A DNA stretch of 64,000 nt from Rhodothermia bacterium. GTDB taxonomy: Bacteria; Bacteroidota; Rhodothermia; Rhodothermales; JAAAOL01. The first letter of the stretch is position 1, and every line of letters begins with the position of its first letter. The position numbers were made by a program, and so were the translations under genes. The stretch is taken from the NCBI GenBank assembly GCA_030428385.1, contig JAUIDY010000002.1, positions 1 to 64,000 on the forward strand, read 5' to 3'. A model generated the notes under the pieces. That model did no database searches. It saw nothing but the letters and a program-made list of their open reading frames with translations, and was not told the origin of the DNA. This document shows, in pieces, positions 39,095 through 41,921 of this stretch.

Positions 39095-39505
39095 ATGGAC
39101 CCGGCCGAACGAGACCGCCGCCGTCCGGTATGGATCGCCCTCGCCGATTTGTGGCTCGATACCGAAATCACGGAGCCCATGCTGCGGCACATTGCCGGGG
39201 TGTTGCGGGCGTCGGGCTACGACCGGGCGACGCTGCGGGCCATCTATCTCTATGAGGTCGCACCGGTGGTGTACCGCAACCTGCTATCGGTCGCCGGGGT
39301 GTGGGGTGGGTTCGACGAAGTGTGGCTGTGCGCCGAAGCCGAGCGATGGGTAGTTCGGCGGAAGGCATCGTGGATCGTGCGGCGGTGGCTGCGCCTCAAA
39401 AAGCCGCTCATGACCTACGCCACCGACGCGCACTGGCACATCCTGATGAACCTGCTCGATGCAGAAGAAGGCGGGTCGTCTACAGCCGCCGCATCACCCC
39501 GATGA
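39095..39505 (+). CDS. DUF7079-like protein
   Basis: A 136-aa helical protein: RRPVWIALADLWLDTEITEP, LRAIYLYEVAPVVYRNLLSVAGVWGGFD, and a basic end (RKASWIVRRWLRLKK). The WIALSDLFLDTE-like opening and the EVxPVxxxNLLSxAGxWxGF core are those of DUF7079, an uncharacterised small family. It follows the 60-residue protein by 5 bases and overlaps the 3' end of lexA on the other strand by 26 bases. Confidence 0.75.
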   Translation: MDPAERDRRRPVWIALADLWLDTEITEPMLRHIAGVLRASGYDRATLRAIYLYEVAPVVYRNLLSVAGVWGGFDEVWLCAEAERWVVRRKASWIVRRWLRLKKPLMTYATDAHWHILMNLLDAEEGGSSTAAASPR

Positions 39506-40133
39506 TCCGGCCAATGATGTAGCAGCCCGCGTCGTTGGGGGCGAACGTGCTTTCCGTGTACCGGCGGTCGGCGGGGCGCAGGTGGAGGCGGTTATTGGTG
39601 AACTCAAAGTAGCGGGCGAGTAAGGTCTCGCCGACCAGGCACGCCACCAAGTCCCCACGCCGCACGTCCTCCCACGACATCTCTTCAATCAGTAAGAAGT
39701 CGCCCTTGCGGATGCCATCGCCGTTCATGCCATCGTCGCCTGCTCGGGCAAGGAGGCAGCGGTCGTCGGGGTTGCCAAAGACGCGGTTGACGAAATACGG
39801 GTCGACCACAAACGTGCCCTCAGGACGGTGGCGCAGGCGCTGCGGGGCGTCGCTGGATGTGCGGCTGATGACCGTGATCTTCGGCACCTCATCGCGGTCG
39901 AGCGCATAGGCGTCGGCCTGGTCGGTGAGGCGGATGCTACGGGCCTGGTTGCGCACACGGACGATGTATTTTTTGGCCTCCAGCGCGTCGAGGTGTTTCG
40001 AGACGCCATTGGTGGAGGTGATGCCCACCGCCTCGCCAATCTCCTTCAGCGTGGGTGGTTTGCGGTGCGTGCGCAGAAAGGTGCCAATGAAGTCGTAGAT
40101 CGCGCTTTGTCGTTCGGTTAAGGGGGGTCGCAT
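39480..40133 (-). CDS. lexA: LexA-like repressor with apparently inactive peptidase domain
   Basis: A 217-aa protein with LexA order: winged-helix N-terminus (LTERQSAIYDFIGTFLRTHRKPPTLKEIGEAVG) and a C-terminal S24-type fold (TFVVDPYFVNRVF, GIRKGDFLLIEE, DLVACLVG, CYIIGRIIGVMR). LexA normally cuts itself at an Ala-Gly bond using a Ser and a Lys when RecA filaments form. Aligned by eye, the cleavage site reads SD, the Ser segment reads AGDDGM and the Lys segment reads LLARYF, so all three look replaced. It may be a repressor that does not respond by self-cleavage. It faces mraZ across an AT-rich spacer. Confidence 0.85.
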   Translation of the reverse strand: MRPPLTERQSAIYDFIGTFLRTHRKPPTLKEIGEAVGITSTNGVSKHLDALEAKKYIVRVRNQARSIRLTDQADAYALDRDEVPKITVISRTSSDAPQRLRHRPEGTFVVDPYFVNRVFGNPDDRCLLARAGDDGMNGDGIRKGDFLLIEEMSWEDVRRGDLVACLVGETLLARYFEFTNNRLHLRPADRRYTESTFAPNDAGCYIIGRIIGVMRRL

Positions 40134-40356
40134 GAGTATTTACACGGAGAAAGCCGTCAGGGAGGAGTATATGTGCACATTAAAATACGAACGATTCTAT
40201 TGAGATGGTGGATATTTTTTCACTTATATCTTTGCACATGGTGAAATGATTTTCATGAGGCGAAAATATCTATATGTGACGTAATGTTGTGGTTATATGT
40301 GACAGCTATTTCTCATAAGGAAAATCGCAGTAAATGGGCTAAAATTGCAGAAAATG
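40134..40356. promoter_or_regulatory. AT-rich divergent control region between lexA and mraZ with TATATGTG repeats
   Basis: TATATGTG occurs at 40168, 40271 and 40294 (the last two as TATATGTGAC). The first overlaps the perfect palindrome ATGTGCACAT (40171-40180). TTTCAC (40218-40223) and GTGAAA (40241-40246) form another inverted pair. TATCTTTG at 40227-40234 matches the Bacteroidota -7 form but lacks a well-spaced -33. These are candidate operators of the LexA-like protein or another regulator; none is proven. Confidence 0.5.
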
Positions 40357-40387
40357 TTTGCATTTAGAGGTGGGTGGTGTACATTGG
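40357..40387 (+). promoter_or_regulatory. mraZ/dcw promoter, Bacteroidota type
   Basis: TTTG (40357-40360), a 19-base spacer, then TACATTGG (40380-40387) match the Bacteroidota -33/-7 consensus with one mismatch. The transcript would begin near 40393, about 85 bases before mraZ. Confidence 0.65.
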
Positions 40388-40409
40388 TGGCGAGTGGGGA
40401 AAAGTGGGG
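40385..40409 (+). promoter_or_regulatory. three MraZ-type boxes at 10-bp spacing over the promoter
   Basis: TGGTG (40385), TGGGG (40395) and TGGGG (40405) repeat at exactly 10 bp. They cover the -7 element and the expected start point. MraZ proteins are known to bind tandem GTGGG-like repeats upstream of their own gene, so self-repression is the natural reading. Confidence 0.7.
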
Positions 40410-40457
40410 AACTCACCCAGCCTTCCTGACCAGCGTGGGGAAGGCTGGGGAGTCCCC
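40406..40457 (+). other. long leader hairpin before mraZ, containing a second box pair
   Basis: GGGG (40406-40409), ACTC (40411-40414) and CCCAGCCTTCC (40416-40426) pair with GGAAGGCTGGG (40439-40449), GAGT (40450-40453) and CCCC (40454-40457): 19 pairs with two single-base bulges and a 12-base loop. The right arm holds two more TGGGG boxes (40436, 40446), again 10 bp apart. It could act as an RNA structure, an operator, or both. Confidence 0.65.
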
Positions 40458-40477
40458 TCTTCTTGTCTTTATATGTT

Positions 40478-40921
40478 ATGGCCGGTTTTAAGGGACATGC
40501 GGAATACTCTGTAGACAGTAAGGGCCGGGTTGCGATACCGGCCAAGATGCGGAGTGCTTTGAACCCGGACGCCAACAGCACCTTCACCATGACGCGGGGC
40601 TTTGACAAGTGTGTGTTCCTGTATCCGTTGGACCGATGGAAGGAGATGGAAGAGGAGATCGGAAGCCTGAGCACCTACGACCGCGAAGCCCGCGCCTTCA
40701 CCCGCCGCATCATGATGTGGGCGGATGAGGTGACGCTCGACAGCCAGGGCCGCATCAGTCTGACCAAGCAACTCGTCGAGTTTGCAGGCATCAAGGACAA
40801 GGCCATGATCCTCGGCGCGTTCGACCGCATCGAGATCTGGGATCCGGAAGCCTTCGAAGCCTACCTCAACGAGGAGTCGGCGGACTACGAGACCCTGGCC
40901 GAGAAGGTGATGGGCATGTAA
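40478..40921 (+). CDS. mraZ: MraZ transcriptional regulator of the dcw cluster
   Basis: A 147-aa protein with two AbrB-like SpoVT halves. The first is FKGHAEYSVDSKGRVAIPAKMR and the second EVTLDSQGRISLTKQLVEFAG; each carries the DxxGRxxxP/T DNA-contact pattern. MraZ forms ring-shaped oligomers on repeated boxes and controls the cluster it heads. The Met of AGFKGHAEYS is the usual start; an upstream TTG adds five residues. rsmH starts one base after its stop. Confidence 0.95.
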   Translation: MAGFKGHAEYSVDSKGRVAIPAKMRSALNPDANSTFTMTRGFDKCVFLYPLDRWKEMEEEIGSLSTYDREARAFTRRIMMWADEVTLDSQGRISLTKQLVEFAGIKDKAMILGAFDRIEIWDPEAFEAYLNEESADYETLAEKVMGM

Positions 40922-40922
40922 G

Positions 40923-41921
40923 ATGGGTACCCCCGCTGCAAACGATGACGCTGAACACCAGGATATAAAGCAAGGCAGCGCGGGCGATCCGCTGCGATAC
41001 GCGACGCGCTACCATGCACCTGTTCTTTGCAAGACTGTTGTTGCTTCTCTCCTCACCGATCAGGCAGGCTGTTATATAGATGGCACGCTCGGCGGTGGCG
41101 GACACAGCGCGGCACTACTCGATGCCCTGGGGTCTGAGGCCACGGTGATCGGGGTCGACCAAGATGCCGATGCGCTGGCGGAAGCCGAGGCGCGGCTAGC
41201 CGCCGAGATCGAACGGGGACGCTTCCGCACGCTGCGGGGCAACTTCGGCGACTTGGAGCGGCTGTTGCTCGACGACGGCATCGACGCCATCGATGGGCTG
41301 CTGCTCGACCTCGGCGTTTCGTCGCACCAGTTGGACGCGGGCGAACGCGGGTTCAGCTTCCAGGCCGAAGCGCCACTCGACATGCGGATGGATAGCCGCC
41401 ACGGAGTCTCGGCTGACGAAGTGGTCAACCGATGGAGCGAAAGCGAACTGCGGCGGGTGCTGCGGGCCTACGGCGAAGAGCCTCGGGCCGGGCGCATCGC
41501 GCAGGCCATCATCAAGGCACGTCCGGTTCCCACAACCACGGCGCTGGCCAACGTGATACGGCGCGTGGTGCCCACCCGCGAAGAGGTCAAAATCCTCGCG
41601 CGGGTTTTTCAGGGCATCCGCATCGCCGTCAACGGCGAGCTGGAACGGCTTGAGCAGGTGCTGGCGAGTAGCGTGCGGTTGCTGCGTCCCGGCGGGCGCA
41701 TCGTGGTGATGAGCTACCACTCGCTCGAAGACCGGCGGGTGAAGCGGTTTCTGCGCTACGGCAACCTCGACGGCGAGCCGGTGCGCGACTTCTACGGCAA
41801 CCTGATTACGCCGTGGAACGAACTGACGCGCAAGCCCATCGAGGCCAGCGCCGAAGAGATTGCTGCCAACCCAAGGGCCCGAAGCGTGCGGCTACGGGTG
41901 GCAGAGCGACGCGAGGAGTAG
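40923..41921 (+). CDS. rsmH: 16S rRNA m4C1402 methyltransferase RsmH (MraW)
   Basis: A 332-aa SAM-dependent methyltransferase modifying C1402 in the 30S decoding centre. Motifs include HAPVLCKTVV, CYIDGTLGGGGHSAALL (SAM site), LLLDLGVSSHQLD, FSFQAEAPLDMRMD, GGRIVVMSYHSLEDRRVKRF and the basic end RARSVRLRVAERR. It has full family length and is cotranscribed with mraZ (one-base gap). A hairpin-rich repeat block follows its stop. Confidence 0.95.
   Translation: MGTPAANDDAEHQDIKQGSAGDPLRYATRYHAPVLCKTVVASLLTDQAGCYIDGTLGGGGHSAALLDALGSEATVIGVDQDADALAEAEARLAAEIERGRFRTLRGNFGDLERLLLDDGIDAIDGLLLDLGVSSHQLDAGERGFSFQAEAPLDMRMDSRHGVSADEVVNRWSESELRRVLRAYGEEPRAGRIAQAIIKARPVPTTTALANVIRRVVPTREEVKILARVFQGIRIAVNGELERLEQVLASSVRLLRPGGRIVVMSYHSLEDRRVKRFLRYGNLDGEPVRDFYGNLITPWNELTRKPIEASAEEIAANPRARSVRLRVAERREE

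Follow-up and report, generated by a model that had tools for sequence, protein, structure and literature searches.

The window analysed here is a stretch of 64,000 nucleotides from a member of the Rhodothermia, in which a dcw cluster opens with mraZ (40478–40921, forward strand). The encoded protein scores 123.8 bits against TIGR00242, for which the cut-off is 98.35, carries the motifs DSKGR and DSQGR, matches the PDB chains 1n0e, 9qlr, 9sx6 and 9qlg, and is the product of the only mraZ gene in this genome. The next gene of the cluster is rsmH (mraW; 40923–41921, forward strand; TIGR00006, 294.2 bits with a cut-off of 154.3), and more dcw genes downstream of it were labelled by eye from their translations. 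The intergenic region at 40134–40477 separates mraZ from a divergent LexA-like gene (39480–40133, reverse strand), of which the score with TIGR00498, 98.6 bits, stays under the cut-off of 110.95. LexA-like relatives occur at 35 of 59 mraZ loci (some loci share a genome, and one match has 26% identity), which suggests that across much of the order the SOS repressor gene lies next to the division cluster.

Upstream of mraZ, on the forward strand, TTTG at 40357–40360 aligns with the CTTGAC of relatives and is followed, after a spacer of 19 nucleotides, by the -7/-10 element TACATTGG at 40380–40387, which has one mismatch to TAnnTTTG. This is the promoter, TTTG-N19-TACATTGG, that an earlier sequence-only reading had placed here, and it is found exactly there. 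Since the -7 box of sigma-A promoters in F. psychrophilum lies at -12 to -5 in the accessible text of PMC9723704, transcription is predicted to start near 40392 (40391–40393), as compared to the 40393 proposed earlier.

Four direct boxes stand in one register along this promoter with an exact spacing of 10 bp: TGGTG at 40375–40379, TGGTG at 40385–40389, which overlaps the -7 element, and TGGGG at 40395–40399 and 40405–40409 (all forward strand). Two of the four thus contain the full TGGG, and these two form the pair that is common to all 101 operators read. The next 10-bp slot is occupied by a box in the opposite orientation, ACCCA at 40415–40419 (TGGGT on the reverse strand), with its CCCA at 40416–40419. 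From 40340 to 40480 there are just two more TGG[GT]G sites, which start at 40436 and 40446 and are again 10 bp apart, and this second TGGGG pair (40436–40450, forward strand) lies in the 3' arm of a predicted leader hairpin. The boxes at 40385, 40395 and 40405 and their spacing had been recognized before and are confirmed by the sequence; the TGGTG at 40375, the inverted ACCCA and the hairpin with the second TGGGG pair are additions to that description. The row overlaps the -7 element by sequence, and its overlap with the start point rests on the predicted position near 40392. In the MraZ operators described so far, all boxes face one way, and the ACCCA of the window departs from this; as a uniform orientation marks the described examples and not the definition, the window operator can be regarded as a variant.

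The promoter had also been called the Bacteroidota form, which is only partly borne out. TTTG near -33, as in B. fragilis-type promoters (accessible text of PMC7366714) and about 19–21 bp upstream of the -7 element, is present in the window (TTTG at 40357, N19), and TTG-N19/20-TAnnTT fits 83 of the 101 orthologous promoters, with a spacer of 19 in 78. However, the canonical TAnnTTTG, from which the window itself deviates at one position, is present in just 7 of the 101 (TAnnTTG in 61), and among the 83 fitting promoters, 67 have as upstream element CTTGAC, a form that is equally sigma70-like. In F. psychrophilum, the variant TAnnTTGY is found in a different class of promoters, according to the part of PMC9723704 that was accessible. 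The spacing assigned earlier therefore stands and the canonical -7 element does not, and in view of the F. psychrophilum and B. fragilis forms the window promoter is best described as a mixed form. Across the 83 fitting promoters the first box of the conserved pair starts 14–17 bp past the T of TAnnTT in 81 cases and 7 bp past it in the other 2.

Searches beyond the locus gave little further definition of the promoter type. In 148 upstream regions (363 kb, with gene starts called crudely from the longest ORFs) TAnnTTTG occurred 9 times forward and 5 times in reverse with 7.3 expected, which is no enrichment, and TTG-N18-20-TAnnTT was weakly enriched (9 vs 4.9). The combination TTTG-N18-20-TAnnTTTG was not above control in the genome of the window, nor clearly so in most of the positive-control genomes of the phylum, which makes this count uninformative; TTGAC-N16-18-TAnnTTTG gave 2 matches genome-wide against 11 control matches, and a sigma70 promoter scan gave no match at the site.

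The box arrangement is widespread in the order. The composite TGGGG-N5-TGGGG-N6-CCCA was found in 75 of 114 genomes, with 77 matches against none for the control, and 28 of the 29 loci checked have it directly 5' of mraZ. Among the 39 genomes that lack it, MraZ was detected in 12 and in 18 of the remaining 27, the other 9 of these 27 giving no MraZ match, and operators could be read in 26 of these 30; those left out were G048, G059 and G060 (no start found) and G078 (a partial, weak match). The only same-family relative among the genomes covered, G001, gave no MraZ match. After alignment on the direct pair, an anchor that favours such pairs, GTGGG-N5-GTGGG with its 10-bp spacing stands 5' of mraZ in all 101 operators read, and GTGGGGAAWWGTGGGGAA is nearly invariant. 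In the window, the two TGGTG boxes 5' of this pair are weaker than TGGGG, and they do not occur generally across the order. Within the window the four-box pattern has one exact match, and with up to three mismatches two matches were found where shuffled sequences predict 0.08. An exact match to the composite occurs in this genome only at mraZ, and one mismatch allowed three matches against one in the control.

The flipped box keeps a fixed place. Counted from the first box of the pair, CCCA lies at +21 in 75 of the 101 operators (30 of 42 when weighted by genus), and at other offsets from -30 to +35 it was never seen in more than three operators, with five at +36. About nine out of ten genera have C in alignment columns 22 and 23, the bases past the final A of CCCA are unconserved, and the bases between boxes are A/T-rich when read from either box. 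Within its 10-bp slot the flipped CCC coincides with the three base pairs that GGG has in a direct box, which implies that an MraZ unit bound at this end would have to face the other way.

Of the 75 operators with CCCA, 3 have a strict third direct TGGG in register, as compared to 13 of the 26 without CCCA (Fisher, 4.6e-7); by genus majority the counts are 1 of 30 and 5 of 12 (p 0.005). In genome G008, for example, a third direct box stands without CCCA, whereas G020 and G030 of the same family have CCCA. A quick MraZ tree gave three to four independent pairs, none in the wrong direction, which is not significant; the tree, with 58 of 75 rows because those without a read operator were excluded, is weakly supported, and the long branch G021 was dropped from a second version. 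The apparent exchange between a flipped and a third direct box thus rests on few independent changes and is weakened by relatedness. Three boxes are not strictly required, since 13 of the 26 operators without CCCA also do without a strict third direct box. Three loci of family f4 (L036, L050 and L060) carry an extra direct TGGGG in register beyond the flipped box.

Outside the order, 46 mraZ loci were read (26 and 20). In family f24 the slot after the direct pair holds TCCCA at 7 of 11 loci and TCCCT or CTCCA at two more, while the second direct box is often degraded to TGTTT or TGTTG (L218–L224, L120, L127, L130 and L131). Family f17 has TCCCA at 2 of 3 loci and TTCCA at the third, and in family f16 GCCCA follows three direct boxes at 1 of 2 loci, so that a flipped box in register recurs in three more families of the phylum. 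At one f32 locus CCCA comes one base early, and the remaining families among the 46 loci showed no flipped box. The loci of f18, a family of the same class that we take to be Balneolales-like, resemble the window in having a TACATT promoter, mostly with TTGAC upstream, and a row of boxes at 10 bp, but all 7 loci read have direct boxes only, and their first box slot directly adjoins the -7 element. A phylum-wide pattern search gave matches in 30 of 247 genomes against one control match, several of the matches looking, as judged by sequence, like chance sites away from mraZ.

Comparison with MraZ operators from other bacteria shows which features are shared. In E. coli MG1655, TTGACA-N17-TAAACT is followed by TGGGA, TGGGG and TGGGA at 10-bp spacing, so that, as in the window with its predicted start, boxes in exact register stand just 3' of the -10 element of a sigma70-type promoter and over the start region; the E. 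coli operator has three direct boxes and no flipped one, whereas in the window there are four direct boxes, with a flipped box and a second pair in addition. The operator of the Burkholderia cenocepacia dcw cluster consists of four 7-nucleotide repeats with 3-nucleotide spacers, located 3' of the -10 box, where they overlap the start, and MraZ bound a fragment with these repeats (PMC7761207). It shares the 10-bp period with the window, and the accessible part of its description mentions no inverted repeat. For Mycoplasma the available texts give the site as (AAAGTGKN3)3 and MraZ as an octamer, and the remaining cluster genes rise in M. genitalium when MraZ is lost (PMC5282649, PMC8475190). That site is similar to the window in its direct repeats, their 10-bp period and the GTG that they contain, but according to the same texts it has direct repeats only, another promoter and a reduced cluster. 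Boxes for MraZ together with self-repression are thus on record for other bacteria in the accessible parts of PMC8475190, PMC7761207 and PMC5282649, in agreement with the remark on self-repression in the earlier reading. A published description of an inverted MraZ box was not recognized in a limited literature search.

The proposal, already made for the three boxes, that the site is the operator by which MraZ represses its own cluster is strongly supported by the place and register of the boxes, the occurrence of the site once per genome and its conservation in 101 of 101 operators. With binding, repression and start point all deduced from sequence features, we consider it very probable that this is an autoregulatory operator. 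MraZ made from the first gene would bind the row of TGG[GT]G boxes at 40375, 40385, 40395 and 40405 on one face of the helix, with one box per turn. Since the row covers the -7 element and the predicted start, its occupation would block RNA polymerase and keep the expression of mraZ, rsmH and the genes that follow low, so that the cluster would be under negative feedback. At its downstream end the row would be extended by the one box of opposite orientation, ACCCA at 40415–40419, in the next 10-bp slot; this flipped box is proposed to be an MraZ contact that stands in for the classical third direct box and sets the end of the row.

Boxes for MraZ over an mraZ promoter are ordinary in themselves, because MraZ operators that overlap the start are known elsewhere; with the plain operator a known scheme is found in one more order, and what is new is the flipped box at a fixed offset. 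Whether MraZ reads this box as DNA we would put at about an even chance, whereas some role of the box at the DNA level is likelier than this strict reading. The wider proposal, that MraZ operators in a large part of the phylum end in a reversed box that is read by MraZ, with an end unit that docks oppositely, caps the row and sets its length, may about equally well be right or wrong. If it is true, the direct-repeat model describes one of two operator grammars that can be exchanged in evolution. A natural reversed box also offers a test of whether neighbouring subunits of the MraZ ring must face one way, the alternative being that either half of MraZ can take a box.

The leader itself is strongly structured in the window. 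RNA folding predicts a hairpin at 40416–40449 (forward strand) with a core of CCCAGCCTTCC (40416–40426) and GGAAGGCTGGG (40439–40449), extended outward by GGGGA/TCCCC and followed by a T-rich tail to about 40472; because CCCAGCCTTCC pairs with GGAAGGCTGGG, the flipped box and the box at 40446 form the two ends of the core stem. The leader at 40392–40477 (about 86 nucleotides) folds with -47.7 kcal/mol and a z of -4.95 (-3.97 for a longer piece). Among 100 leaders of the order its z is the lowest (-6.5 in that comparison), the median being -0.59. A search of G000, the genome of the window, for second copies of the leader element gave none beyond its own inverted repeat. In the ~140-nucleotide mraZ leaders of L174–L179 (family f5, genus g44), the best predicted fold lets the second box pair farther downstream and not with the CCCA at +21.

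Such a structure raises the question whether control of the cluster could reside mainly in the leader, with early termination at the hairpin and T-rich tail and a secondary role for the MraZ boxes. Besides the extreme folding energy of the window leader, the R. sphaeroides case speaks for this, where the 268-nucleotide mraZ leader UpsM has a proven terminator and an sRNA (accessible text of PMC5089854). Both leaders are structured, with a hairpin 5' of the start codon, but that of the window has only about 86 nucleotides and its hairpin is predicted whereas the other terminator is proven, if the available part of that paper is followed. The stem of the window is strong, but other bases interrupt the T-rich tail, a scan scored one weak terminator-like site, and the median z indicates that such a hairpin is no general feature of the order. 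By analogy with R. sphaeroides (PMC5089854, in part), the window hairpin could attenuate transcription, but leader control as the main mechanism seems quite unlikely. A different RNA role can be envisaged for the flipped CCCA, because TGGG is complementary to it: in the mRNA, the UGGG of the second box would pair with CCCA in a small hairpin at the 5' end that tunes stability or translation, and MraZ would take the direct boxes only. In relatives the isolated stretch does fold weakly to moderately (-5.5 to -9.4 kcal/mol among the CCCA-bearing rows listed). A hairpin loop would tolerate some variation, however, whereas CCCA stays at a single offset; of 74 leaders with CCCA, only 24 use the pairing in their best predicted fold, and the bases past CCCA show no pairing constraint. 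In f24, furthermore, TCCCA is retained where the second box became TGTTT or TGTTG (though the first box could still pair there), and CCCA is rare alongside a third direct box. We therefore regard this explanation as unlikely.

The G-runs themselves have also been interpreted in another way. A G-quadruplex was reported in the S. aureus mraZ promoter, where it is proposed to act in regulation, and G-quadruplex-forming motifs were called conserved in several species (accessible text of PMC11796246); the window does match a loose two-G motif. Nevertheless, four runs of at least three G with loops of up to 7 occur in only 6 of the 101 operators and in none of the 75 with a flipped box, loops of up to 12 raise this to just 9 of 101 and 3 of 75, and the window matches neither of these G3+ motifs. 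With the flipped box, moreover, the third G-run moves to the opposite strand, which argues against a quadruplex reading of the mraZ promoter G-runs in this order. For the order considered here such a quadruplex is highly improbable, and its G-runs are, to judge from these motif counts, conserved as boxes. GC-rich intergenic DNA often contains G-rich repeats, and one might suppose that the boxes are a low-complexity coincidence over an ordinary promoter. The 77 composite matches against none in the control, the two matches against 0.08 expected in the window and the invariant columns across the 101 operators leave practically no room for this, and conservation already refutes it. The MraZ operator stays the preferred reading.

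Some further sites deserve mention. In the 6.19-Mb genome, TGGKG-N5-TGGGG-N5-TGGGG has two matches and the reversed pattern none; the second match (L200, 15826–15850, on contig C171 of G000) lies on the strand opposite to an SDR-like ORF and abuts its start codon, and is probably due to chance. One-mismatch matches to the composite on contigs C14 and C165 were considered as further MraZ targets and found unconvincing, the former being located inside an ORF of 1085 amino acids. In the intergenic region, a canonical TAnnTTTG (TATCTTTG) is present at 40227–40234 on the forward strand, 250 bp 5' of mraZ, where it possibly belongs to a second promoter, and TATATGTGAC is repeated near it.
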